Source: Bolinopsis microptera (lineage: Eukaryota; Ctenophora; Tentaculata; Lobata; Bolinopsidae). From it: a stretch of 36,809 bases of DNA. Positions 1 through 14,029 of the stretch are shown here, in pieces. The position numbers were made by a program, and so were the translations under genes. Every line of letters begins with the position of its first letter. Position 1 is the stretch's first letter. The DNA is taken from positions 1-36,809 of the forward strand of contig NW_026971824.1 in assembly GCF_026151205.1 (NCBI RefSeq). The letters are read 5' to 3'. Below the pieces are notes generated by a model, which did no database searches, was not told where the DNA came from, and was given only the letters and a program-made list of their open reading frames with translations.

Positions 1-1
1 T

Positions 2-1040
2 TCACACTTAACCACCTGTATTGAAAAATATGTAAAAGTCCAACGGAAAAGAATCTACAGCTGTTTTGTAATTGTAGACTTTCAGAAAGCGTTCGACACG
101 GTTTCAAGAGAAGCCCTACTGTACAAATTAAATAAGCTTGGTATGCAGGGGCGGTTTTTTATTGTCTCCAATACATGTACAGAAACTCAAAAGCAAGACT
201 AAAAATGATTAAAAAGCTCTCAGCTTGTTTTGACGTTAATGCTGAACGGAACAGGGCCACCCCTTTAGCCCAGAACTCTTCAAATGATATATCTACGAAC
301 TCTCCCTTGAGATCAACGCCCTACCCGGAGTGGAAAGTCCCCAACTCAACAACCAACGGATTACTCACCTGCTTTGGGCGGACGATCTGGTCCTGCTAGC
401 CCTTAATAAGGACAGTCTTCAGCTAATGATTGACCAACTCCACTCATTTTGCACTAACTGGGGATTGATTGTTAACATTAAGAAAACTGCGGTCATCATC
501 TTCAATCCCTCAGGAAGGCAGTTACTCGAGAGTAAAACATTTACTTACGGCAGAAGTATTGTAATCGCCTCGGTCAAAAGTTACTGCTACCTAGGTACTC
601 ATTTCACAATATGTGGCAGTATGAAGCTTAACCAAGAGCAGCTCAGGATCAAAGGACTTCGAGCATACTTCTCCCTGAAAAAGACGGTTGATCTCTCCTA
701 AATTTCTAAAGAGGCTGTGTTTAAACTCTTCGATGCCCTTATACTTCCTGTCGTCTCATACGGTAGTCAGGTGTGGCTCCCCTATACCAACATTCTCAGC
801 AACATCTGTCAGAAGAAAACACAGTCCGACAAAGACACACTCAGTCAATTAGCGAATGACAGCATCGAGCGCATGCATCTCTCGCTGCTAAAATGGACGA
901 CTGGGGTCAACAAGAGAACTTCAAATATCCCGATATGGGGAGACACAGGAAGATATTATCCCCTTGCAATACAACTGAATAAGCTCTTTCTTGACTTCAA
1001 ATGGAACTATCATCTTACTATAAGTATATGTAAAGCGAGA
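2..1040 (+). pseudogene. LINE (non-LTR retrotransposon) reverse transcriptase, decayed, 5' end outside window
   Basis: Remnant of a LINE ORF2 reverse transcriptase, which copies element RNA into DNA at the target site. Read from base 2, the peptide has RT motif A DFQKAFD (77-97) and then hits a stop near 200. The reading then shifts frame. From about 246 it gives motif B (QGHPFSPELF), then the catalytic box WADD (375-386; the family usually has YADD or FADD), then the thumb and C-terminal region with KTAVIIFN, YLGTHF and WGDTGRYYP near 930-965. In-frame stops at 285-287 (TGA) and 699-701 (TAA), plus at least one frameshift, make it non-functional as read. No endonuclease is visible because the window starts inside the RT. 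The family call rests on motifs read by eye; the clade is undetermined. Confidence 0.85.
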
Positions 1041-1042
1041 CG

Positions 1043-1062
1043 ATATATATATATATATATAT
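1043..1062. repeat. (AT)10 microsatellite
   Basis: Uninterrupted AT dinucleotide run just beyond the end of the LINE coding remnant. LINE 3' ends often finish in short simple repeats, so this could mark the end of that insertion (inference). Confidence 0.85.
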
Positions 1063-1254
1063 GGATCCGTGCCATTTTACTGACACCATGGCATCAACTT
1101 TAACGCGACTTTCCGCAAAAACTGTACAGGATATACAACTTAAACTTTTTTGACTGGTTCAAACTTCAAATGCTTTTATGCTTTTCAAATCAGCATGAAA
1201 AAATAAAAAATTGGCCATGAAGTAAGTATTTTAGTGCCCAAAATTTGGATCGCC

Positions 1255-1322
1255 AAGTGGTGTCAAAAACGCGATTTAAATAGATAATAATTATTTTAGT
1301 CTCTTGAGTCTTGACACCACTT
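1255..1322. repeat. 68-bp element with 12-bp terminal inverted repeats
   Basis: Starts with AAGTGGTGTCAA and ends with its exact reverse complement TTGACACCACTT. A diverged copy in the opposite orientation lies at about 16738-16787; between the repeats both share the GCGA and AGTCTCTTGA blocks. It is too small to code. It could be a MITE-like element or the end of a larger one. The bases between 1063 and 1254 show nothing recognisable. Confidence 0.6.
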
Positions 1323-1479
1323 TAGGGTTATACTTATACGGGTTCCTGCTAGTGTATCTAACGTTGACGTGGGCAAATATCCTCCTGTTGATATTTTGTG
1401 TCTGTTTATACCTGTACTGTGAACTCCGAACAATCCTTGCTATTACAATCTCCACATCATTTGTCAAACAACTACCAGT

Positions 1480-1975
1480 GCTAGCTCCGTCGATGGACAG
1501 TATAAAGCTAAAGACAGCTGTGAAAACCGTAGTTGAAGATGACGTCCGCAATAAGAATTTCATTGTCTACGGTGTACCCGAGAATTACGGCAGTGATCCA
1601 CATAATACTATAATATAGTGGCATAAGAAGTGATCACCGAGATTTGGGAATCATCGGGGTGTGATCCTAAAGTAGTGGCAGCAAGTTTGATAGGGATTAA
1701 AAACTTAGTGATAGTGGAAAATCGAGACCGATAAAAGTGACATTGGCTTGCACAGAATCAGTCAAAATCTTGCTCGAGCAAGAAACCTAAAAGTAAATAT
1801 GCAGCGTACCATACGTGGTTCATCACAACTGACAGAAATAGAGAGGAGAAAGCTGCTTACCAGAAAGTCAGAAACTTGTTGTAAAAATGAAAGAAATGAT
1901 TACTGCTCAGTGCTCAGCCAATAAAGTATCATTATATTAGAGACGGCAAGATTTTCAGTGTACTTGTAGATAAGG
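1480..1975 (+). pseudogene. LINE ORF1-type RNA-binding protein remnant
   Basis: Decayed relative of the ORF1-type protein encoded at 14885-15661 on the other strand. An open stretch ending at 1618 contains VVEDDVRNKNFIVYGVPE, matching VAAEEDRTKNLIVFGL of the intact copy. Beyond the stop the same protein can be followed in shifted frames: SVKILLEQARNLK (about 1765-1790), TEIER (about 1835) and finally YIRDGKIFSV (about 1935-1965), matching HYIRYGKVCS. The usual role is nucleic-acid chaperone binding in the LINE ribonucleoprotein. Several frameshifts and stops make it dead. It lies downstream of the RT remnant on the same strand, although ORF1 normally precedes ORF2 in an intact element, so the two are probably separate or rearranged insertions. 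Confidence 0.7.
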
Positions 1976-2490
1976 TCAAGAAGTAACATACAATGTTTTT
2001 GATATCCAATATCCATATTACTTAGATTTAAGTGTACTATAAGGTTCTTATTTATGGCTGTTGCCTGTATTCGTTGATTTCGGCCGATAACGAGGAACTT
2101 TTAATTGTGAGTTATAACAGTAACACACATAATATAACCCCGGCATGCGTAGGGATTATATTTCAATTTTTCCCGCGACGCGTGGGAACAATTTATAATG
2201 ATTTCAATGTGCATTTGTTTAAAGAAATTTGTGCTGGCCAAAATTAGCGCTAAAAAACCATCCTACAGTTTATAAATTAATATAGTGCGCTGCACTGTAA
2301 AAAAGAGGTACGTACTTTACTATGAGCGTGACAAAGTTATCCAAATATTGCAGTATAACCATTGGATCCGTGCTCTTTTGCTAATGGTGTATTATAATTG
2401 TTAGATTGACCCAATCTACTATATTTCAGACCAAGGAATGTTAATTGGGCAGCTACAGACACAGTTAACTAAGTCACACAAAATGTGACA
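1976..2490. other. Non-coding spacer before the tandem duplication
   Basis: AT-rich and single copy within the window. The only open frame (about 2032-2247) has no recognisable domain and is probably chance. TGGATCCGTGC near 2364 also occurs near 1062, suggesting a short shared repeat. No gene is supported. Confidence 0.5.
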
Positions 2491-2882
2491 TTTGAACCAT
2501 TATAGTGCCTGACAACAATAATTTTTATTTCTGAGCAGTGCATATATGTGAGTATGGGTTACGTGGCTAATGTTCAGAACTTCTGAACATGTTAGGTCAA
2601 TAGATAGGTACCAAAATTAAGCCACTATTGTCGAAAACACTATTATTTTTGTTTACCAATATCCTCAAACTCAAATGAACGTGTCCATATAATTTGTCTA
2701 TACCAATTAGATACCAAGTCTACTTTTCGAATTTGAAAGTCGGTTAGCTCTTCCTTATAAAATCTTTCGTGATTCATAATCTTTCGTGATTAATAACGTA
2801 CGTCTTCATCAAGCGTTGAGGACTGATTTCGCTCATTCCGTAAAAACACAATCATTTAGGTACGTTTAATTATCCCTATTTT

Positions 2883-3262
2883 CACAATGCTGGCAAGCAT
2901 ATACCGTTGCCGTTATATTCACAATACTATTTACCCCCTATACTATTATATCCCCTTTATTGTTTTCCAGGCATTAAGACTCATCGGAAATAGTTATGTG
3001 GAGGTTTTTAAGAAATTTACGCAAAATACGCGCCAGCATGTTATACGAAATTAGGTAAAAAACCCAAAATCGCCATATTCAGGTGCCTTAAAAACCATGT
3101 TAAAATTGAGTTAGAGATCTGAAACTTTGCAGGGCGTCTAAACCTTGTCCAAATCGACTGTACAAAAATTTTCATTTTTCAGGAGTATCGGGGAGTGGGT
3201 TTTCTGGAACCCCTTTTTTACAACAGATTGTCTTGAAGTATATAGATGTATATATAATATAT
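2883..3262 (+). repeat. Block A, left copy (inverted partner at 5348-5798)
   Basis: Its reverse complement is found at 5348-5798 with scattered substitutions and indels. Examples are CACAATGCTGGCAAGCAT at 2883-2900 against its exact complement at 5781-5798, and the shared TTCAGGAGTATCGGGGAG / CTCCTGA region. The right copy is longer because it holds a 16-bp minisatellite. No coding capacity was recognised. The same block lies at 8113-8492 in copy 2. Confidence 0.85.
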
Positions 3263-3323
3263 ATGATGTTTCTTTTGGAGAAATCCAGTTTCAAGAGTGC
3301 TCTACCCGGGAGGGGAGCATTGT

Positions 3324-3405
3324 ACAATGAAAACAACGATTCTACAAACTCAAAGTTTCATGCAAATGCAATCATCAGTGTCAAAATAACTTACTAAATT
3401 ACTAC
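3324..3405 (-). repeat. 82-bp inverted repeat, left arm (PLE terminal repeat-like)
   Basis: Reverse complement of 3768-3849 with one mismatch (81/82). Penelope-like elements are often flanked by terminal-repeat-like sequences that can be direct or inverted and that carry hammerhead ribozymes. This arm contains a hammerhead motif on the minus strand. The second tandem copy is at 8554-8635. Confidence 0.85.
3340..3388 (-). ncRNA. Hammerhead ribozyme motif, type I, minus strand (copy 1)
   Basis: Read on the minus strand: stem I 5' strand ATTTTGACA (3388-3380), core CTGATGA (3379-3373), stem-loop II TTGCATTTGCAT (3372-3361), core GAA (3360-3358), a 3-bp stem III ACT/AGT closed by a TTG loop (3357-3349), cleavage-site nucleotide U (3348), then stem I 3' strand TGTAGAAT (3347-3340). 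Stem I forms 8 pairs including one G-U, with one bulged G. All invariant core bases are present, with a GUU cleavage triplet. Known family: minimal hammerheads of about 50 nt with very short stem III occur in PLEs and act well as dimers. Caveat: the first pair of stem II is a U-U mismatch, so activity may be low. The predicted cut lies between 3348 and 3347. Confidence 0.75.
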
Positions 3406-3419
3406 TCTTTCAACTTTAT

Positions 3420-3638
3420 ATGGTGTTGAAAGATAAACAAACACCATATAAAATATCTTGGAAAATAATCAAACATGCTCATCCGTACAAGGGGGGTACG
3501 AAAGATTGTCATCTCTGCCTTACTGAAAAACTTTATATTATTTTAAATAAAGATGGCAATCTATTAAATAGGAGGAGGGAACTCATAAGCAAATGTAGGC
3601 ACACCAACAAGTTTATGCTGAAGAAATGCTTCTAGGAA
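3420..3638 (+). pseudogene. Penelope-like element, C-terminal endonuclease fragment
   Basis: Open frame of 71 codons ending at the TAG at 3633-3635. The peptide has SWKIIKHAHPYKGG, then CHLCLTEKL, then RRRELISKCRHTNKF. I recognise this as the C-terminal end of the GIY-YIG endonuclease module carried by Penelope-like retroelements of aquatic invertebrates, where a Cys-x-x-Cys, a glutamate and the final RNE(L/I)...CRH...NK block are conserved. The GIY-YIG core and the whole reverse transcriptase are missing, so it is heavily 5'-truncated; the apparent ATG is internal to the family sequence and not a real start. It lies between two 82-bp inverted arms, and the + strand hammerhead follows the stop by about 150 bases, as expected for a PLE 3' end. 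No activity is expected from this fragment. Confidence 0.75.
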
Positions 3639-3767
3639 TGATTTATTTTTTATTTTAGTTAGTTTTTGTTTTTGTATTTCATTTTCGTTTCGTTTCGTTT
3701 GATTTTGTTTTTGATTTAGTTTAGTTAAGTTAATTTTATGAAGGAGCTTGTAAGGAAAATATGGATT

Positions 3768-3849
3768 TAGTAATTTAGTAAGTTATTCTGACACTGATGA
3801 TTGCATTTGCATGAAACTTTGAGTTTGTAGAATCGTTGTTTTCATTGTA
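3768..3849 (+). repeat. 82-bp inverted repeat, right arm (PLE terminal repeat-like)
   Basis: Partner of 3324-3405. The only mismatch falls in hammerhead stem I, where it changes a G-U pair to a G-C pair and so keeps the helix. The second tandem copy is at 8998-9079. Confidence 0.85.
3785..3833 (+). ncRNA. Hammerhead ribozyme motif, type I, plus strand (copy 1)
   Basis: Stem I 5' strand ATTCTGACA (3785-3793), core CTGATGA (3794-3800), stem-loop II TTGCATTTGCAT (3801-3812), core GAA (3813-3815), stem III ACT/AGT with TTG loop (3816-3824), cleavage nucleotide U3825, stem I 3' strand TGTAGAAT (3826-3833). Stem I has 8 Watson-Crick pairs with G3790 bulged; the A-U pair next to the cleavage site is present. 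The size (49 nt) and 3-bp stem III fit PLE hammerheads. Weak points are the U-U at the base of stem II and a GUU rather than GUC triplet. The predicted cut is between 3825 and 3826, downstream of the PLE stop codon. Confidence 0.8.
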
Positions 3850-3866
3850 TATAATATATATATATA

Positions 3867-3898
3867 TTTGACCAAAACCCATAATCATGGGTAGAGTG
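3867..3898 (+). repeat. 32-bp element end, copy 1
   Basis: Begins TTTGACCAAAACCCATAATC and continues to GGGTAGAGTG; it contains a CCCAT/ATGGG hairpin. The same 32 bp occur in direct orientation at 6636-6667, 9097-9128 and 11866-11897, and inverted at 14189-14220. Recurrence next to different sequence suggests the terminus of a non-autonomous transposable element. Confidence 0.7.
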
Positions 3899-4015
3899 GA
3901 CCGCTGCCAGTGTCTCTCTTTCCCAAACAAAAGGAAATGATATTAATTTGCCTGACCGTTCTCAAATGCAAATTGATACCGAGAATGAAAATGAAATTAC
4001 AATTCGTAAGCCGTG
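3899..4015 (+). repeat. Block C, left copy
   Basis: Inverted partner of about 6672-6822. Shared words include CAAACAAAAGGAAATGATAT, GATACCGAGAATGAAA and ACAATTCGTAAGCCGTGA. Non-coding. Confidence 0.75.
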
Positions 4016-4096
4016 AGTGATAGGAAAAGCAAGCAACCGATTTCATTCTCGGTATCAATTTGCATTTGAGAACAGTCAGTCAAATTAATATCATTT
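3935..4096. repeat. Hairpin: two 56-bp inverted arms around a 50-bp loop
   Basis: Arms 3935-3990 and 4041-4096 are reverse complements with two mismatches (54/56). The transcript would fold into a long near-perfect hairpin, a possible small-RNA precursor or a foldback element. The second copy is at 9165-9326. Confidence 0.8.
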
Positions 4097-4107
4097 CAGT
4101 CAAAGAA

Positions 4108-5046
4108 GTTTCAACGATTTCGAAATTTTTCCTTTAAACAAATTTCCTTGTGTTTAGGTAAGCATATCTGTCGATCACTGATTGAATATGCAACTATATA
4201 ATCATTCAAGTTGGCATTAAACTTAAATATAATGTCATTTAACTGTCATGTTACTGTTAAAGCAGGAACTAAATCTAATCGAAATAAAGAGAGTGAAGTT
4301 CTCACTTTTTGCAAACTTTGAGCAGACGTTGCGTGCCCATCCAATATCAAATCACCGTGAAATTTTGAATTTTTGTATTTTCTATGTAGTTTAATAAGTG
4401 TGCAAAGTTTCAGAATATTTCAGGAAGAACTCGCATCACAACGGGAATCCAAAGCTGATAAAAATCGTGAAAATAACAATTTTCAGTGATTTTAGCAATT
4501 TTCTATCAATTTGGGCGTGTCCCCACGTGTGCAACTTTTCGATTTTCAACTTTAAAACTAGCCTATAACACAATTTAGACCTTAAGGAAGCAAAATTGAG
4601 CTCCAACACCCAAGAGATGGTCCAACACCAGAGAATACTAATTCACAACTTTTGTGTTTTTATAAAATTATTCTTCAAAAAAGCACTAATTTCAATAGTA
4701 AATATCTTTATGAAGGAGCAAGGTAGGATAATTTTCCAGTAGATTTTTAGAATGCTTGAACAATTATCTGAGGTAAAAATGTCCTCAGATTATGAATAAA
4801 ATTACTTCTTAATGGTGTTAAATTGATTTGAAAAGTTGTTATTTTGTCAAAAATCAAGATTTAAAAACGCTTAATTTGATGACGTCATCAAGTGGTGATG
4901 ATGACGTTAAATTATTTTTTGATATAATGTAAACTAAAGTGTAAACAATTATCTTCAAGACCTTTGGTTCGAGATGACTGTATAATTTATACTTTTGAAT
5001 CTACAGATACTTGAATGTAGGCTCCAATTGACTGCCAAAGCGTCTA
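4108..5046 (+). repeat. Block B, left copy
   Basis: About 940 bp whose reverse complement lies at 5811-6560. The match is diverged, and an insertion of about 150 bp is present on this side near 4540-4670. Well-preserved parts include the region around GGGCGTGTCCCCACGTGTGC (4513-4532) and the palindrome TGATGACGTCATCA. ORFs at 4995-5186 and 5277-5471 overlap the blocks without a recognisable domain. Confidence 0.8.
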
Positions 5047-5347
5047 TCTCTACTATAATTCAGAGAATTCTTTTTGTAGAATGTATGTACGACCGCCCAC
5101 GTGCAAATTCGGCAAAAAGCAAAAGGTTGCGAAGTAACCATGGTAACGGTTTCGTTACACGCACGTGCACGTGCAAAGATTGTTAAAACGGCATTTTTAT
5201 CGGTTTTTTTGATATTACGCTGTGTTTAGTACGAGCAACATTTTAATCGGCTGTATCTTCGGTTGTGTAGGATATTTTGACGCGATTTAAACTCACTAAC
5301 AAAAAATACAATTATTTTCCTCCCTGTGACCACGGGTTTTCTAGTAT
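5047..5347. other. Non-repeated spacer between blocks B and inverted A
   Basis: Unpaired within the unit. It carries an E-box-rich word, CACGTGCACGTGC, near 5163-5176. No gene seen. Confidence 0.4.
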
Positions 5348-5798
5348 TATATATAATATACATCTATATACTTCACGACAATCTGTTGTAAAACAGGGGT
5401 TCCAGAAAACCCACTTCCCGATACTCCTGAAACTTACAACTTTTTTAACAGTCGATTTGGTCAACATATAGACGTCCTGCAAAGTTTCAAATCTCTAACT
5501 CAATTTTAACACTGTTTTTAAGGCACCTGAATATGGCGATTTTGGGTTTTTATTTTTTAACCTAATTTCGTATAACATGCTGGCGCGTATTTTGCGCAAA
5601 TTTCTTAAAAACCTCCAAATAACTATTTCTTATTCCTGTCATCTTTAACATTGAATTAGAATGGGGGTAAGCAGTAAGGGGGGTAAATAGTAAAGGGGGT
5701 ATATAGTAAAGGTGGGTAAATAGTAAAGGGGGTAAATAGTAAAGGGGGTAAATAGTATTGTGAATATAAGGGCGACGGTCATGCTTGCCAGCATTGTG
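5348..5798 (-). repeat. Block A, right (inverted) copy
   Basis: Reverse complement of 2883-3262, enlarged by the G-rich minisatellite at 5663-5756. It is followed almost directly by inverted B, so on the minus strand the order is C-B-A. The second tandem copy is at 10578-11028. Confidence 0.85.
5663..5756 (+). repeat. 16-bp minisatellite (GGGGGTAAATAGTAAA), about 6 units
   Basis: Six imperfect units of GGGGGTAAATAGTAAA. The inverted partner block at 2925-2980 has about half this length, so the array expanded on one side after the inverted copies separated. The second tandem copy is at 10893-10986. Both copies have the same unit number, so the 5.2-kb duplication is younger than the expansion. 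Confidence 0.85.
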
Positions 5799-5810
5799 AT
5801 ATAGATGTAT

Positions 5811-6560
5811 AGACGCTTTGGCAGTCAATTTTGTAGCCTACATTTAAGTGTCCGTAGATTCAAAAGTATAAAAGATACAGTCATTTCGAACCACAGGTTT
5901 TAAAGATGATTGTTTATACTTTAGTTTATATTATATCGAAAAATAATTTATCCTCATCATCATCACTTGATGACGTCATCAAATTAAGTGTTTTTAAAAC
6001 TTGATTTTTGACAAAATAATAACTTTTCAAATCGATTTTACACCATTAAGGAGTAATTTTATTCAAAATCTGAGGGCATTTTTGTCTTAGATAATTGTTC
6101 AATCATTCTGAAAATCTACCGGAAAAGTTTCCTACTTTGCTCCTTCATAAAGATATTCGCTATTGAAGTTAGTGCTTTTTTGAAGAATAATTGCACACGT
6201 GGGGACACGCCCAAATTGATATAAAATTGCTAAAATTACTGAAAATTGCTGTTTTCACCATTTTTATCAACTTTGGAGTCCCGCGTTGTGATCCAAGTTC
6301 TTTTTGAAATCTTCTGAAACTTTGCATGCTATGCAAAAATTTAGGGTGATTCAATATTGTATGCACACGCAACGTCCGCTCAAAGTTTGCACGTGCGAAA
6401 GGTGAGAATTTTGCTCATTCGTGATTTCGAATAAATTCTGCTTTCCCACGATATTTAAATGGCATTATATATGAATTTAATGCCAACTTGAAAGTTGAAT
6501 GAGTAAAAAGTGCCATATGCAGTCAGGTAAAATTTCGAAATCGATGAAATTACCTCTTTA
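5811..6560 (-). repeat. Block B, right (inverted) copy
   Basis: Reverse complement of 4108-5046, for example AGACGCTTTGGCAGT at 5811-5825 against its complement at 5032-5046, and TTGATGACGTCATCAA in both. The open frame at 6169-6372 on the minus strand has no recognisable domain. The second tandem copy is at 11041-11790. Confidence 0.8.
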
Positions 6561-6635
6561 TTAAATTAATGAAGTTATGAGTTTACATTTCGGCTTTGTA
6601 AATTATCCTGACATTATAATCAAAAAGAGATGATA

Positions 6636-6822
6636 TTTGACCAAAACCTATAATCATGGGTAGAGTGTACCGATCACGGCTTACGAATTGTAATAAAGCT
6701 TATTGATTGGAAAAAGCGAGCGACCGATTTCATTCTCGGTATCAATTTGCATTTGCGGACGGTTATTCAAATTAATATCATTTCCTTTTGTTTGGAAAAG
6801 AGAAACACTGTCAGCGGCTGCA
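6636..6822. repeat. 32-bp element end plus inverted block C, right copy
   Basis: 6636-6667 repeats the 32-bp end seen at 3867-3898 in the same orientation, while 6672-6822 is block C inverted. This mix of direct and inverted relationships places the same end sequence on the same side of oppositely oriented blocks. The second tandem copy is at 11866-12052. Confidence 0.7.
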
Positions 6823-7714
6823 CGACTTCCAGGCCCCCCTATTATTAGGGGTCAGATCATATGACGTATAATTAGTGATGTGACGTATAATTAGTGATGT
6901 GATCCACCGGCTATGATTTACAGAACATGTGAACTCTACCCTATATCTAGCACAGTTTTACTCCCTACTTTTGATTTAAAGGCAGTATCTAGATAGCCCG
7001 ACCCCTGTCCGCGGACAACTGTCCACGAAAACCTGTCAACCAGATCATATTACTGCATAATATAAGTATCAAGCAACAGCTGTTTGTGAATAGTTGATCA
7101 GCCTGAGGGCAACGTATACCATCTATTTGTCCAGAAACACTACCATATGGACAGATGATTGGGAGTTAGTCAAGAGACCAGTAATAGCATAGTAGGAGCG
7201 TAGAATGTTTGGGCCCAGAAAAACATGTCTAATACCGCTATGAACCCGTCATAAGCCGGGGACTACTATGAAAGTGATGATGCTGTGTTGTTGAAAGACC
7301 TTCGACCAATCAAAGATGTACCTCATCACGCCAAGCAGTTATGCTTGTAGGTGAATATACACTTATAGAGTACAACAACTTTATAACACTCCTCATATGA
7401 CCGCAAATGTTATGTAATTGAATGGTATGTATGGTATCTTGGAGTTGGATGCAATTAGTTACGACTAGCATAATTAATTGTAGCGTAGTAAATTACTGGA
7501 TCAAACTATTGATTACGATTCAAATGTGGACTCTCGGATATAATTAGTTACGAATAATATTGATTGTAGCGTAATATATTGCTCAATGCAGTCTAATAAT
7601 AGTTATTAATTATATATATAAGGTTGCTTAATCGTTTAATAAGCCTTGACACCACCGCTGATTGAAATTCGCGTGCGATGATTGTGAACCCTGCTTGATT
7701 CAGGGGGAAATGTT
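6823..7714. other. Composite transposon-derived tail of the unit, non-coding
   Basis: Contains a 19-bp exact tandem pair, TGACGTATAATTAGTGATG (6862-6880 and 6881-6899), a 70-bp inverted-repeat arm (6993-7062), and an AT-rich segment rich in TAATTAGTTACGA-type words (7455-7600). It ends in CAGGGGGAAATGTT (7701-7714), which resembles a polypurine tract followed by an LTR-style TG. No coding frame was recognised. Confidence 0.5.
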
Positions 7715-7720
7715 GAAATG
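7715..7720. other. 6-bp junction between tandem copies
   Basis: GAAATG lies between the end of copy 1 (ending AAATGTT) and the start of copy 2 (TTTGAACC). It repeats the adjacent GAAATG word, so it may be filler DNA or microhomology from the joining event. It is absent after copy 2, where the flank reads ATTATGCAG. Confidence 0.7.
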
Positions 7721-8569
7721 TTTGAACCATTATAGTGCCTGACAACAATAATTTTTATTTCTGAGCAGTGCATATATGTGAGTATGGGTTACGTGGCTAA
7801 TGTTCAGAACTTCTGAACATGTTAGGTCAATAGATAGGTACCAAAATTAAGCCACTATTGTCGAAAACACTATTATTTTTGTTTACCAATATCCTCAAAC
7901 TCAAATGAACGTGTCCATATAATTTGTCTATACCAATTAGATACCAAGTCTACTTTTCGAATTTGAAAGTCGGTTAGCTCTTCCTTATAAAATCTTTCGT
8001 GATTCATAATCTTTCGTGATTAATAACGTACGTCTTCATCAAGCGTTGAGGACTGATTTCGCTCATTCCGTAAAAACACAATCATTTAGGTACGTTTAAT
8101 TATCCCTATTTTCACAATGCTGGCAAGCATATACCGTTGCCGTTATATTCACAATACTATTTACCCCCTATACTATTATATCCCCTTTATTGTTTTCCAG
8201 GCATTAAGACTCATCGGAAATAGTTATGTGGAGGTTTTTAAGAAATTTACGCAAAATACGCGCCAGCATGTTATACGAAATTAGGTAAAAAACCCAAAAT
8301 CGCCATATTCAGGTGCCTTAAAAACCATGTTAAAATTGAGTTAGAGATCTGAAACTTTGCAGGGCGTCTAAACCTTGTCCAAATCGACTGTACAAAAATT
8401 TTCATTTTTCAGGAGTATCGGGGAGTGGGTTTTCTGGAACCCCTTTTTTACAACAGATTGTCTTGAAGTATATAGATGTATATATAATATATATGATGTT
8501 TCTTTTGGAGAAATCCAGTTTCAAGAGTGCTCTACCCGGGAGGGGAGCATTGTACAATGAAAACAACGA

Positions 8570-8618
8570 TTCTACAAACTCAAAGTTTCATGCAAATGCA
8601 ATCATCAGTGTCAAAATA
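8570..8618 (-). ncRNA. Hammerhead ribozyme motif, type I, minus strand (copy 2)
   Basis: Identical to the motif at 3340-3388, with the same core, wobble pair and U-U mismatch. The predicted cut is between 8578 and 8577 on the minus strand. Confidence 0.75.
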
Positions 8619-8649
8619 ACTTACTAAATTACTACTCTTTCAACTTTAT

Positions 8650-8868
8650 ATGGTGTTGAAAGATAAACAAACACCATATAAAATATCTTGGAAAATAATC
8701 AAACATGCTCATCCGTACAAGGGGGGTACGAAAGATTGTCATCTCTGCCTTACTGAAAAACTTTATATTATTTTAAATAAAGATGGCAATCTATTAAATA
8801 GGAGGAGGGAACTCATAAGCAAATGTAGGCACACCAACAAGTTTATGCTGAAGAAATGCTTCTAGGAA
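8650..8868 (+). pseudogene. Penelope-like element endonuclease fragment (copy 2)
   Basis: Same 71-codon fragment as at 3420-3638, with the stop at 8863-8865. It shows the CHLCLTEKL and RRRELISKCRH blocks and lacks the GIY-YIG core and RT. Confidence 0.75.
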
Positions 8869-9014
8869 TGATTTATTTTTTATTTTAGTTAGTTTTTGTT
8901 TTTGTATTTCATTTTCGTTTCGTTTCGTTTGATTTTGTTTTTGATTTAGTTTAGTTAAGTTAATTTTATGAAGGAGCTTGTAAGGAAAATATGGATTTAG
9001 TAATTTAGTAAGTT

Positions 9015-9063
9015 ATTCTGACACTGATGATTGCATTTGCATGAAACTTTGAGTTTGTAGAAT
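9015..9063 (+). ncRNA. Hammerhead ribozyme motif, type I, plus strand (copy 2)
   Basis: Identical to 3785-3833. The predicted cut is between 9055 and 9056. If transcription runs through both tandem units, the two + strand motifs would release an RNA of exactly 5230 nt. Confidence 0.8.
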
Positions 9064-12000
9064 CGTTGTTTTCATTGTATATAATATATATATATATTTG
9101 ACCAAAACCCATAATCATGGGTAGAGTGGACCGCTGCCAGTGTCTCTCTTTCCCAAACAAAAGGAAATGATATTAATTTGCCTGACCGTTCTCAAATGCA
9201 AATTGATACCGAGAATGAAAATGAAATTACAATTCGTAAGCCGTGAGTGATAGGAAAAGCAAGCAACCGATTTCATTCTCGGTATCAATTTGCATTTGAG
9301 AACAGTCAGTCAAATTAATATCATTTCAGTCAAAGAAGTTTCAACGATTTCGAAATTTTTCCTTTAAACAAATTTCCTTGTGTTTAGGTAAGCATATCTG
9401 TCGATCACTGATTGAATATGCAACTATATAATCATTCAAGTTGGCATTAAACTTAAATATAATGTCATTTAACTGTCATGTTACTGTTAAAGCAGGAACT
9501 AAATCTAATCGAAATAAAGAGAGTGAAGTTCTCACTTTTTGCAAACTTTGAGCAGACGTTGCGTGCCCATCCAATATCAAATCACCGTGAAATTTTGAAT
9601 TTTTGTATTTTCTATGTAGTTTAATAAGTGTGCAAAGTTTCAGAATATTTCAGGAAGAACTCGCATCACAACGGGAATCCAAAGCTGATAAAAATCGTGA
9701 AAATAACAATTTTCAGTGATTTTAGCAATTTTCTATCAATTTGGGCGTGTCCCCACGTGTGCAACTTTTCGATTTTCAACTTTAAAACTAGCCTATAACA
9801 CAATTTAGACCTTAAGGAAGCAAAATTGAGCTCCAACACCCAAGAGATGGTCCAACACCAGAGAATACTAATTCACAACTTTTGTGTTTTTATAAAATTA
9901 TTCTTCAAAAAAGCACTAATTTCAATAGTAAATATCTTTATGAAGGAGCAAGGTAGGATAATTTTCCAGTAGATTTTTAGAATGCTTGAACAATTATCTG
10001 AGGTAAAAATGTCCTCAGATTATGAATAAAATTACTTCTTAATGGTGTTAAATTGATTTGAAAAGTTGTTATTTTGTCAAAAATCAAGATTTAAAAACGC
10101 TTAATTTGATGACGTCATCAAGTGGTGATGATGACGTTAAATTATTTTTTGATATAATGTAAACTAAAGTGTAAACAATTATCTTCAAGACCTTTGGTTC
10201 GAGATGACTGTATAATTTATACTTTTGAATCTACAGATACTTGAATGTAGGCTCCAATTGACTGCCAAAGCGTCTATCTCTACTATAATTCAGAGAATTC
10301 TTTTTGTAGAATGTATGTACGACCGCCCACGTGCAAATTCGGCAAAAAGCAAAAGGTTGCGAAGTAACCATGGTAACGGTTTCGTTACACGCACGTGCAC
10401 GTGCAAAGATTGTTAAAACGGCATTTTTATCGGTTTTTTTGATATTACGCTGTGTTTAGTACGAGCAACATTTTAATCGGCTGTATCTTCGGTTGTGTAG
10501 GATATTTTGACGCGATTTAAACTCACTAACAAAAAATACAATTATTTTCCTCCCTGTGACCACGGGTTTTCTAGTATTATATATAATATACATCTATATA
10601 CTTCACGACAATCTGTTGTAAAACAGGGGTTCCAGAAAACCCACTTCCCGATACTCCTGAAACTTACAACTTTTTTAACAGTCGATTTGGTCAACATATA
10701 GACGTCCTGCAAAGTTTCAAATCTCTAACTCAATTTTAACACTGTTTTTAAGGCACCTGAATATGGCGATTTTGGGTTTTTATTTTTTAACCTAATTTCG
10801 TATAACATGCTGGCGCGTATTTTGCGCAAATTTCTTAAAAACCTCCAAATAACTATTTCTTATTCCTGTCATCTTTAACATTGAATTAGAATGGGGGTAA
10901 GCAGTAAGGGGGGTAAATAGTAAAGGGGGTATATAGTAAAGGTGGGTAAATAGTAAAGGGGGTAAATAGTAAAGGGGGTAAATAGTATTGTGAATATAAG
11001 GGCGACGGTCATGCTTGCCAGCATTGTGATATAGATGTATAGACGCTTTGGCAGTCAATTTTGTAGCCTACATTTAAGTGTCCGTAGATTCAAAAGTATA
11101 AAAGATACAGTCATTTCGAACCACAGGTTTTAAAGATGATTGTTTATACTTTAGTTTATATTATATCGAAAAATAATTTATCCTCATCATCATCACTTGA
11201 TGACGTCATCAAATTAAGTGTTTTTAAAACTTGATTTTTGACAAAATAATAACTTTTCAAATCGATTTTACACCATTAAGGAGTAATTTTATTCAAAATC
11301 TGAGGGCATTTTTGTCTTAGATAATTGTTCAATCATTCTGAAAATCTACCGGAAAAGTTTCCTACTTTGCTCCTTCATAAAGATATTCGCTATTGAAGTT
11401 AGTGCTTTTTTGAAGAATAATTGCACACGTGGGGACACGCCCAAATTGATATAAAATTGCTAAAATTACTGAAAATTGCTGTTTTCACCATTTTTATCAA
11501 CTTTGGAGTCCCGCGTTGTGATCCAAGTTCTTTTTGAAATCTTCTGAAACTTTGCATGCTATGCAAAAATTTAGGGTGATTCAATATTGTATGCACACGC
11601 AACGTCCGCTCAAAGTTTGCACGTGCGAAAGGTGAGAATTTTGCTCATTCGTGATTTCGAACAAATTCTGCTTTCCCACGATATTTAAATGGCATTATAT
11701 ATGAATTTAATGCCAACTTGAAAGTTGAATGAGTAAAAAGTGCCATATGCAGTCAGGTAAAATTTCGAAATCGATGAAATTACCTCTTTATTAAATTAAT
11801 GAAGTTATGAGTTTACATTTCGGCTTTGTAAATTATCCTGACATTATAATCAAAAAGAGATGATATTTGACCAAAACCCATAATCATGGGTAGAGTGTAC
11901 CGATCACGGCTTACGAATTGTAATAAAGCTTATTGATTGGAAAAAGCGAGCGACCGATTTCATTCTCGGTATCAATTTGCATTTGCGGACGGTTATTCAA

Positions 12001-12222
12001 ATTAATATCATTTCCTTTTGTTTGGAAAAGAGAAACACTGTCAGCGGCTGCACGACTTCCAGGCCCCCCTATTATTAGGGGTCAGATCATATGACGTATA
12101 ATTAGTGATGTGACGTATAATTAGTGATGTGATCCACCGGCTATGATTTACAGAACATGTGAACTCTACCCTATATCTAGCACAGTTTTACTCCCTACTT
12201 TTGATTTAAAGGCAGTATCTAG

Positions 12223-12292
12223 ATAGCCCGACCCCTGTCCGCGGACAACTGTCCACGAAAACCTGTCAACCAGATCATATTACTGCATAATA
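12223..12292 (+). repeat. 70-bp inverted repeat, left arm
   Basis: Begins ATAGCCCGACCCCTGTCC and ends CTGCATAATA. It is the reverse complement of 12944-13013 with three mismatches (67/70). Inside is the palindrome GTCCGCGGAC followed by a GGAC-AACT-GTCC hairpin. Together the arms bound a 791-bp segment (12223-13013) that resembles a non-autonomous TIR element. The left arm alone also occurs at 6993-7062 in tandem copy 1. Confidence 0.8.
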
Positions 12293-12943
12293 TAAGTATC
12301 AAGCAACAGCTGTTTGTGAATAGTTGATCAGCCTGAGGGCAACGTATACCATCTATTTGTCCAGAAACACTACCATATGGACAGATGATTGGGAGTTAGT
12401 CAAGAGACCAGTAATAGCATAGTAGGAGCGTAGAATGTTTGGGCCCAGAAAAACATGTCTAATACCGCTATGAACCCGTCATAAGCCGGGGACTACTATG
12501 AAAGTGATGATGCTGTGTTGTTGAAAGACCTTCGACCAATCAAAGATGTACCTCATCACGCCAAGCAGTTATGCTTGTAGGTGAATATACACTTATAGAG
12601 TACAACAACTTTATAACACTCCTCATATGACCGCGAATGTTATGTAATTGAATGGTATGTATGGTATCTTGGAGTTGGATGCAATTAGTTACGACTAGCA
12701 TAATTAATTGTAGCGTAGTAAATTACTGGATCAAACTATTGATTACGATTCAAATGTGGACTCTCGGATATAATTAGTTACGAATAATATTGATTGTAGC
12801 GTAATATATTGCTCAATGCAGTCTAATAATAGTTATTAATTATATATATAAGGTTGCTTAATCGTTTAATAAGCCTTGACACCACCGCTGATTGAAATTC
12901 GCGTGCGATGATTGTGAACCCTGCTTGATTCAGGGGGAAATGT

Positions 12944-13013
12944 TATTATGCAGTAATATGATCTGGTAGACAGGTGTTCGTGGACAGTTGTCCGTGGACA
13001 GGGGTCGGGCTAT
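12944..13013 (-). repeat. 70-bp inverted repeat, right arm
   Basis: Partner of 12223-12292. Its inner edge coincides with the last base shared by the two tandem 5.2-kb copies, so the duplication breakpoint lies at the arm boundary. Confidence 0.8.
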
Positions 13014-13600
13014 TTTTTGTTGCAGTGATAATGAATGAATCTAAACTAATATATTTAGTAATGTAATAATTGGTAATCTTGTCGGTAACAAAAAACCAAC
13101 AAAAAACTTGTTATGGACGGTTAAAATCAGGTTTTTGAATTGAAAGCACTCCCACGGCTTACTTGTTAATTTTAACCTTCATGGTTTATTTAGGAAACTT
13201 CAATCCTCTGTTTCAACTTAACTGCCTAGAGAGGACGGAGTTAAAAGCACTGCCCGACGTCCTGACGATACAGGGGGAGCCGCGCACTTCGTGCGCGGCG
13301 CAGCGGGTCATACAACGTATGACAACTAAAAATGCCATTATTTAGGAAACTTCAATCCTCCGTCTCTCTGATATATCCATTATGAACACTGCCTGATATA
13401 TATATTTCTTAACGGGTGATACTCGTTAAATATTTGTTCCATATATTCCAGGACCGTCGCGACGAGTCCAGCTCGGCGCGCGTCCTGTTAGGTTGTAAAC
13501 CTACAAAATATTTCTAAGACTAAACTGATACATGATAATTGTAATTTCTCGGGTAATTTTTTCACTTACCTTATCGGACCTTATTTGAACGTACATTAAT
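13014..13600. other. Non-coding spacer with short direct repeats
   Basis: The 23-bp word at 13186-13208 (containing TTTAGGAAACTTCAATCC) recurs exactly at 13338-13360. The frame open at 13163-13345 has no domain and crosses a GC-rich hairpin, so it is not called a gene. Confidence 0.5.
13279..13299. repeat. Perfect GC-rich hairpin, 9-bp stem, 3-nt loop
   Basis: GCCGCGCAC, loop TTC, GTGCGCGGC. It is conspicuous in an AT-rich setting and lies between the two 23-bp direct repeats. Function unknown. Confidence 0.7.
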
Positions 13601-13860
13601 TGAACGCTGGCTAAGTGGCTTATAGTTGGTTAATCTGCTTGTCTACTGGCCCTGACGTTGCGAGTTTGAATCCCAGTTGGGCCAAGATTTCAAAATTGAT
13701 GGGCAGCCCGCGTTACTTGAGGGCTGAATCCTTGTCCTTCCTCCGGGAGTAAATGTATCCATCAGAGTCGAGTAGCTGTTGACATCCTGTCCGACCAGAG
13801 ATAAATTTGGAGAAGGTAGGCACGTTGATAGAATGCGATACTATTGTCTATCATCTTCCC
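13601..13860 (+). mobile_element. tRNA-derived SINE-like element
   Basis: An A-box match TGGCTAAGTGG (13608-13618) and a B-box match GTTTGAATCCC (13664-13674) are spaced as in a tRNA with a long variable arm, which is the internal RNA polymerase III promoter of tRNA-derived SINEs. The would-be acceptor strands do not pair, so this is not a functional tRNA gene. About 170 bp of unrelated body follow, ending near a TA-rich run at 13862-13874. The 3' limit is uncertain. Confidence 0.5.
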
Positions 13861-14029
13861 GTATATATATATATCTAAGAACACTTGCATGCCTTTGGCA
13901 CGTACGTCTCACATCCCTAGATACGAGAACCCCTCTTTAGCAAGAGCTCCCGTCCCTTATGTGATATACGAGTCGAGCAGTCAAATCTTAAAGATCATGT
14001 TTACTTCTTAATGAACCACTATGATGTAC

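Follow-up and report, generated by a model that had tools for sequence, protein, structure and literature searches.

Minimal type I hammerheads of Penelope-like elements (PLEs) were reportedly treated by Cervera and de la Pena in 2014 and by Lunse et al. in 2017, the title of the latter being said to state that related PLE hammerheads cleave. In the sections of later papers on which we draw, these motifs follow the type I order with a very short stem III and lie in the pLTRs of elements found as tandem or inverted copies (PMC7761336, PMC6155905, PMC7229834), and one such section calls their in vivo role still a mystery (PMC7761336). The Poseidon element PAc of Anolis carolinensis has its hammerhead at the junction of pLTR and ORF, the ORF beginning at stem II, and uses an AT-rich target; its protein cleaves and extends both target strands in vitro, and the hammerhead works only with the protein (PMC11167929). 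RT starts 111-118 nt into the PAc ORF and the ribozyme cut is at 26, so that the two are 85-92 nt apart, this being the main one of two RT start sites past the cut (PMC11167929). The consulted part of the paper on the Penelope of Adineta vaga already describes inverted pLTRs with an optional tail on one of them, target-site duplications (TSDs) of 8-10 bp and head-to-head palindromes, the palindromes being explained by self-priming (PMC3846280). The word ribozyme does not occur in its main text. Type I hammerheads are also spread by retrotransposition in the metazoan non-LTR retrozymes, which, in the portion of their description used here, are non-coding direct tandem repeats (PMC7229834).

The window analysed here is an entire 36.8-kb contig (36,809 nucleotides) of the 264.65-Mb genome of the ctenophore Bolinopsis microptera. 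Among sequences of solved structures, a glutamate receptor of this genome has its best match in ML032222a, a Mnemiopsis leidyi protein, which scores well above the second match although it is far from identical. A minimal type I hammerhead motif is located at 3785-3833 of the forward strand, with a predicted cut at 3825/3826. Direct reading gives the core C3-A9 (CTGATGA, 3794-3800), a stem II of TGCA with TGCA (4 bp and a 2-nt loop, 3802-3811), G12A13A14 (GAA, 3813-3815), a stem III ACT-TTG-AGT of 3 bp with a 3-nt loop (3816-3824, closed by A15.1-U16.1 = 3816/3824), H17 as T (U) at 3825 and a stem I of eight pairs between 3826-3833 and 3785-3793, in which G3790 is bulged. Every invariant core base (C3 U4 G5 A6 G8 A9/G12 A13 A14 A15.1-U16.1) is present, H17 is not G, and the three stems are arranged in type I order with stem I open. 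The base of stem II (10.1-11.1) has no G-C or other pair and carries a U-U mismatch instead (U3801/U3812). The letters agree exactly with the anatomy given in the initial annotation (CTGATGA, GAA, A-U pair, bulged 8-bp stem I, 3-bp stem III), which had also placed the tail of a PLE endonuclease 150 bases upstream; indeed, its stop codon ends at 3635 and the motif starts at 3785. The motif thus resembles the PLE hammerheads mentioned above in stem order, stem III, pLTR location and copy arrangement. As far as can be judged from the consulted sections of citing papers, it differs from them in its stem sequences, in a U-U shared by all four families described below and in its ctenophore host.

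The chance rate of such motifs was estimated with a type I descriptor (CUGANGA, stem II of at least 3 bp in which 10.1/11.1 may be mismatched, GAA, an A-U-closed stem III, H17, and a stem I of at least 4 bp or of 3 bp, a bulge and at least 3 bp). Single-strand sequence simulated with the dinucleotide composition of window positions 1-14000 (383.6 Mb) yielded 39 matches when stem III had to be 2 bp or longer and 11 when it had to be 3 bp or longer, i.e., 0.10/Mb or 0.029/Mb, rates that are somewhat flattering since the descriptor was composed after the motif had been seen. The expectation for both window strands is 0.007 or 0.002 respectively, against four matches observed, which have one independent origin. 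The four consist of the motif and a second, opposite one, both of which occur twice because the segment 2491-7714 recurs as a tandem at 7721-12944 (99.94% identity). This 5.2-kb tandem either arose very recently by duplication or is artefactual, stemming from the assembly of a small contig.

With the endonuclease tail as query, at least 150 matches were found in the genome. Three families with long open frames were examined, family 1 being that of the window; a fourth was seen at locus L103 and, decayed, at L160, and is a hammerhead family older than the other three. The ORFs of families 2 and 3 are 46% and 48-51% identical to that of family 1, and C3 of the hammerhead is situated 154-159 nt (family 1), 106 nt (family 2) or 141 nt (family 3) past the endonuclease stop. 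Stem II and the triplet vary: 12 nt and GUU in family 1, 23 nt and GUC or GUU in family 2, 15 nt and GUU in family 3, which has CUGAAGA in the core. All four PLE-type families have a common hammerhead core and the U-U at 10.1/11.1, and among them both sides have changed with pairing preserved at pairs 3 and 4 of stem I (counted past the bulge in family 1), pairs 2 and 3 of stem II and pair 3 of stem III. Position 7 is U, C or A across the four families (among 49 family-1 arms, 36 have T and 13 have C), and H17 is only C, U or A. All 11 core bases are intact in 47/49 distinct arms of family 1, 46/54 of family 2 and 31/31 of family 3. Polymorphisms shared by several insertions of family 1 fall in 4/10 unconstrained and 1/39 constrained columns (p=0.004). 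The same contrast in family 2 (4/11 vs 8/45, p=0.17) is not significant, the paired-column polymorphisms being inflated there by junction bases of truncated arms in columns -48 to -43; the pooled value is p=0.011. The 31 arms of family 3 have no shared polymorphism within the motif. Singleton polymorphisms, mostly post-insertion in origin, are scattered across all column classes.

The mismatch at the base of stem II, like the GUU triplet, had been called unusual in the initial annotation, with the suggestion that the motif might work poorly or as a dimer. Natural hammerheads with U-U at 10.1/11.1 exist, and U-U allows more cleavage than other mispairs, according to the part of the study used (PMC3088659); HHR_Amex2, in the consulted portion of the retrozyme description, carries U-U at its helix II base and shows better cleavage when dimeric (PMC7229834). 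Given these precedents and its presence in four families, the U-U is a tolerated natural variant and therefore not a sign of decay.

An Rfam hammerhead match, proposed along with the initial annotation as a check, was not obtained. Rfam 15 gave no match in the whole window at the gathering score and no hammerhead match at E<=10, either in window 3300-4000 or at six loci of families 1-3. Sister families are missed as well, i.e., the Rfam models miss hammerheads of this class here. A hold-out covariance model made from ten rows, nine of family 2 and one of family 3, with no family-1 sequence, ranked 3785-3833 first in the window (21.8 bits, E=0.0011), followed by the opposite-strand motif at 3339-3387 (E=0.0036) and by the best unrelated match (E=0.2). 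A model from family 2 alone was rejected as too narrow; it recovered the window motif at E 1.0-2.2 only and family 3 at 0.12-0.45. All three covariance models have stem II set one column off, so they rest on sequence and on stems I and III. In alignment A6, stem I is paired in 88.9% of cells and stem III in 100%, with about 35% for stem II, whose register is shifted by one column; its covariation score exceeds 500/500 shuffles, the rows being few and related. Single-strand folding energy was also considered as support and discarded as uninformative (z-score +0.87 for 3785-3833). These observations taken together, namely the negligible chance expectation, the hold-out match, the motifs of the sister families and stems that changed yet stayed paired, bear out the proposal of a PLE-type hammerhead. 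On these sequence comparisons, the hammerhead motif at 3785-3833, minimal and of type I, is genuine, with catalysis predicted.

The long ORFs of families 1-3 contain the motifs LYRDDG and YIGLTE...FK.R...H..SF, which we take to be those of a reverse transcriptase and a GIY-YIG-like endonuclease. No reverse transcriptase or endonuclease match was found for these ORFs in Pfam and nothing credible among sequences of solved structures (PDB), and the reverse transcriptase matches in NCBIfam were weak (E 0.009 and 0.002 for families 2 and 3, far below cut-off). Another ORF was matched by the Pfam GIY-YIG model at E 2.6e-4, just under cut-off, and a profile comparison with this ORF gave a probability of 96.5 (E 8.5e-10) and extended into the region of the GIY-YIG motif. 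The elements have pLTRs in direct and/or inverted orientation, an optional tail, TSDs and 5' truncation. Motifs, architecture and profile similarity indicate that families 1-3 are probably canonical Penelope-like retrotransposons with a single ORF for reverse transcriptase and GIY-YIG-like endonuclease. The long frame has its first ATG about 140-170 nt past the predicted cleavage site, whereas the PAc ORF begins at stem II (PMC11167929). A search of viral contigs for relatives of the PLE ORF confirmed none. Three more distant RT/GIY-YIG-like ORFs (25% identical over the reverse transcriptase) were found in the genome at L161-L163, in copies near-identical to each other (99% protein identity), and no hammerhead was found in the 4.7 kb examined per copy. 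As a separate observation, decayed inverted PLE relic pairs occur every ~11-12 kb at 15.25-15.36 Mb of C5 in G000, perhaps an expanded segmental array.

Copies of families 1-3 end in two forms, short (S) and long (L), and the window contains a whole 5'-truncated insertion of family 1 with both, facing outward. It spans about 587 bp (3263-3849, left edge ambiguous by 1-2 bases), is bordered by (TA)n tracts, and its left (L) and right (S) edges match the ends of further genomic copies. Judged by such copies, the stretch from the predicted cleavage site to the S end is 3826-3849 (forward strand, +1 to +24); that to the L end, for which the flank was also read, is 3263-3346 (reverse strand, left arm). 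The arms 3323-3404 and 3768-3849 are 99% complementary across 82 bases, and the left one contains the second hammerhead motif (3339-3387, reverse strand, predicted cut 3347/3346), with one C-to-T change. Only the last codons of the PLE endonuclease remain, as a C-terminal tail (...CHLCLTEKLYIILNKDGNLLNRRRELISKCRHTNKFMLKKCF stop) at 3396-3635 of the forward strand, which shares 89% identity with the same region in a longer copy. A second copy of the whole insertion, in the 5.2-kb repeat, is found at 8493-9079, with hammerheads at 9015-9063 (forward) and 8569-8617 (reverse). A transcript across the insertion is predicted to fold into a long hairpin of both ends (-213.9 kcal/mol, z=-15.6). Since the two opposite motifs can pair with each other, the window copy is unlikely to cleave by this folding model, even if the motif itself can, and the insertion is probably inactive.

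Other features of the contig are worth recording. Beside the PLE there are (TA)n tracts and MITE-like inverted repeats (2987-3263/5348-5629, 89%; 4666-5047/5809-6192, 90%), and similar sequence was noted by eye flanking several other PLE copies (L011, L016, L024 and L025). A reverse transcriptase relic at 288-701 (RVT_1, E 1.3e-7) is probably from a non-LTR retrotransposon, and an open frame at 18094-18669 matches a major-facilitator transporter (MFS_1, E 2e-16). The segment 20000-36809 is homopolymer-rich, its open frames are all short and its strands are asymmetric in places; it might be uncorrected long-read sequence.

A way to approach the role of the motif is to place the ends of genomic copies relative to the predicted cut. 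They lie at +24/+86 in family 1, +28/+83 in family 2 and +28/+92 in family 3 (S/L). No match of families 1-3 ended at the predicted cleavage site among the 40 candidates scored per search, the pattern searches, which need bases +1 to about +24/+28, being blind to copies that end there. All outward-facing pairs with both ends classified (39/39) join one S and one L end, 16/16 in family 1 and 23/28 in family 2, where the remaining five have one arm each unclassed; no short-short and no long-long pair was seen in either family. Arms without a partner among those listed number 18/50 and 56/112. The 50 family-1 arms derive from 45 listed rows, of which five, namely four fragments of ORFs and a 46-nt piece of a short end at C5:3058212, were dropped and to which 10 arms of five loci were added. 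For family 2, 100 of 109 S-blocks in the genome were listed, 97 of these 100 were covered, and 7 of 119 pieces were internal fragments that were not counted, leaving 112 arms. The arms of seven chosen long pairs are 98-100% complementary, with complete complementarity over as much as 1670 and 1789 nt. Short insertions measure 154-360 bp in 15 loci (L103 was scored at 124 bp), and 14/16 hand-picked ones have TSDs of at least 6 bp, some of low complexity. Those that were read are inverted pairs or single arms and none is a direct tandem, unlike the non-coding direct tandems that characterize retrozymes in the consulted part of their description (PMC7229834), with repeats of 150-450 bp that each contain a hammerhead, an identity that we therefore rejected. 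One direct tandem does exist (L009), its hammerheads 2469 nt apart with an ORF between them. In several short insertions (L043, L045, L061, L063, L065, L038 and L091) the long arm begins at +20 to +36, where the short one ends (+28), as if the second RT had stopped at the start of the first one on the same RNA. The bases past the cut could not come from a template cut at its 3' hammerhead, which argues that the templates were apparently uncleaved there when new copies were made.

The 5' ends, counted in families 1 and 2, behave differently from what cleavage would leave. Among 112 family-2 arms reaching beyond +20, 81 have their start in the interval -196 to 0. Of these, 40 cluster in a stretch of 22 nt (-51 to -30; binomial p ~2e-17 under a uniform null, the interval having been picked after the data were seen) that takes in the 5' side of stem I and, with C3 at -41, the beginning of the core. 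Starts at -2 to +3 number two, or four under another scoring that puts L111 and the long arm of L048 at +1 and +3, whereas the rate elsewhere than in the cluster predicts ~1.4; a few starts are alignment breaks rather than true ends. Family 1 shows the same pattern more weakly, with 12 of 28 internal starts in -40 to -26 (p ~7e-5, again an interval chosen afterwards and a uniform null), the 28 being what remains of 37 uncut starts without the nine at -148, where the alignment probably has its edge. Two short arms starting at -1 and +1 had suggested that in vivo cleavage might leave its footprint in 5' ends at the cut, an idea that was abandoned once an examination of nearly all listed family-2 copies showed no pile-up there. 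It is thus the border of the ribozyme, and not its cleavage site, that is marked by the 5' ends, although a minor fraction of templates may, by the few starts near the cut, have been cleaved. The 5' border of the motif would then be the transcript start, and the TCAGTT found there in family 2 is presumably an initiator-like sequence. A rival account of the pile-up is the preferred joining of two cDNAs at the stem-I repeats.

In isolated RNA the hammerhead fold is not the energy minimum in any of the three families (family 1, -1.7 vs -4.1 kcal/mol; family 2, -6.3 vs -11.3; family 3, +2.5 vs -6.3). Together with the tiny stem III and the U-U this makes a hammerhead that is poor alone, and uncut templates fit such a hammerhead. 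A near-palindromic stem III is needed by dimeric hammerheads (PMC6466107), and a stem III variant of family 1 is of this kind (ACUCUGAGU, self-duplex -7.9 kcal/mol). The explanation that we favour, and consider very probable as a whole, is a genuine hammerhead in the pLTR of a PLE, a weak predicted ribozyme left uncut on the template, together with priming on two strands. In a living element the hammerhead, lying in the pLTR, would probably act as a weak ribozyme that becomes active with a tandem partner (a dimer with a longer stem III) or with the protein of the element, and it would stay uncleaved on the RNA serving as template. The protein would nick both strands of an AT-rich target, RT would start 24-28 nt past the cleavage site at one nick (S) and 83-92 nt past it at the other (L), and the resulting pair of cDNAs would be joined head-to-head. 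PAc, with two RT start sites past the cut, the main one at a distance very similar to that of the L end here, offers a parallel (PMC11167929), and the strict S+L pairing fits two separate initiations better than the self-priming proposed, in the part of the paper used, for A. vaga (PMC3846280).

A more tentative variant, which we regard as possible but rather unlikely, puts the hammerhead at the 5' end of the transcript, with the transcription start at the pile-up and the S and L starts within the 5' UTR, where they would make the many short palindromic insertions. Each insertion would take two initiations, S and L, on the two cut strands, cleavage would be delayed until RT has passed, and the weak, palindrome-rich hammerhead would serve chiefly through its folding, by which the template RNAs are positioned or dimerised. 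L103 (165-274) is an apparent chimera of a family-1 arm and a fourth-family arm, both truncated at the 5' border of the motif, an arrangement that fits two template RNAs per insertion; no TSD was found at this locus.

How far the motif is a working ribozyme has to be weighed against several other readings. Chance resemblance in AT-rich DNA, to which the silence of Rfam and the weak folding energy might point, is vanishingly improbable and was rejected, given 0.002-0.007 matches expected per window, the hold-out E=0.0011 and above all the family comparison, with the motif at the same location in independent families. More weight is due to the possibility that the motif is a catalytically dead relic, kept as a landmark for a protein or for RT initiation and never cleaving in vivo. 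The weak fold of the monomer, the failure of any of the 40 candidates per search to end at the cleavage site and the 5' ends of family 2, without a clear excess there, would all suit such a relic, as would two results from Anolis, where inactivating the PLE hammerhead did not affect in vitro insertion and no RNA-seq reads with either terminus at its cleavage site were found (PMC11167929). However, related PLE hammerheads cleave (PMC11167929), and a pure landmark would need neither the 11 core bases nor a free N7, an H17 restricted to C, U and A or stems changed on both sides, and we consider a dead relic rather unlikely.

The classical processing role, in which the ribozyme would cut tandem or read-through transcripts into unit-length template RNAs, has in its favour the direct tandem of L009, the stem III palindromes that would favour tandem dimers (PMC6466107) and a few arms starting at or beside +1. 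These starts do not amount to a pile-up (2-4 arms near +1 vs ~1.4 expected), and that of L077 at +1 is a junction on stem-I complementarity. Furthermore, a template cut at its 3' end could not supply the bases +1 to +28 or +1 to +92 found at copy ends, so that for the 3' hammerhead this role is already partly refuted and appears quite unlikely overall.

Our literature search found no paper combining ctenophore and hammerhead, and, judging by titles and the beginnings of abstracts, none of those on ctenophores and Penelope looks like a report of these hammerheads. The finding extends PLE hammerheads to the Ctenophora, the phylum of the host. The 162 placed arms of families 1 and 2 (50 and 112) record where RT started and stopped relative to the ribozyme, and the question of the in vivo role of PLE hammerheads can thus be asked of genomic copies.
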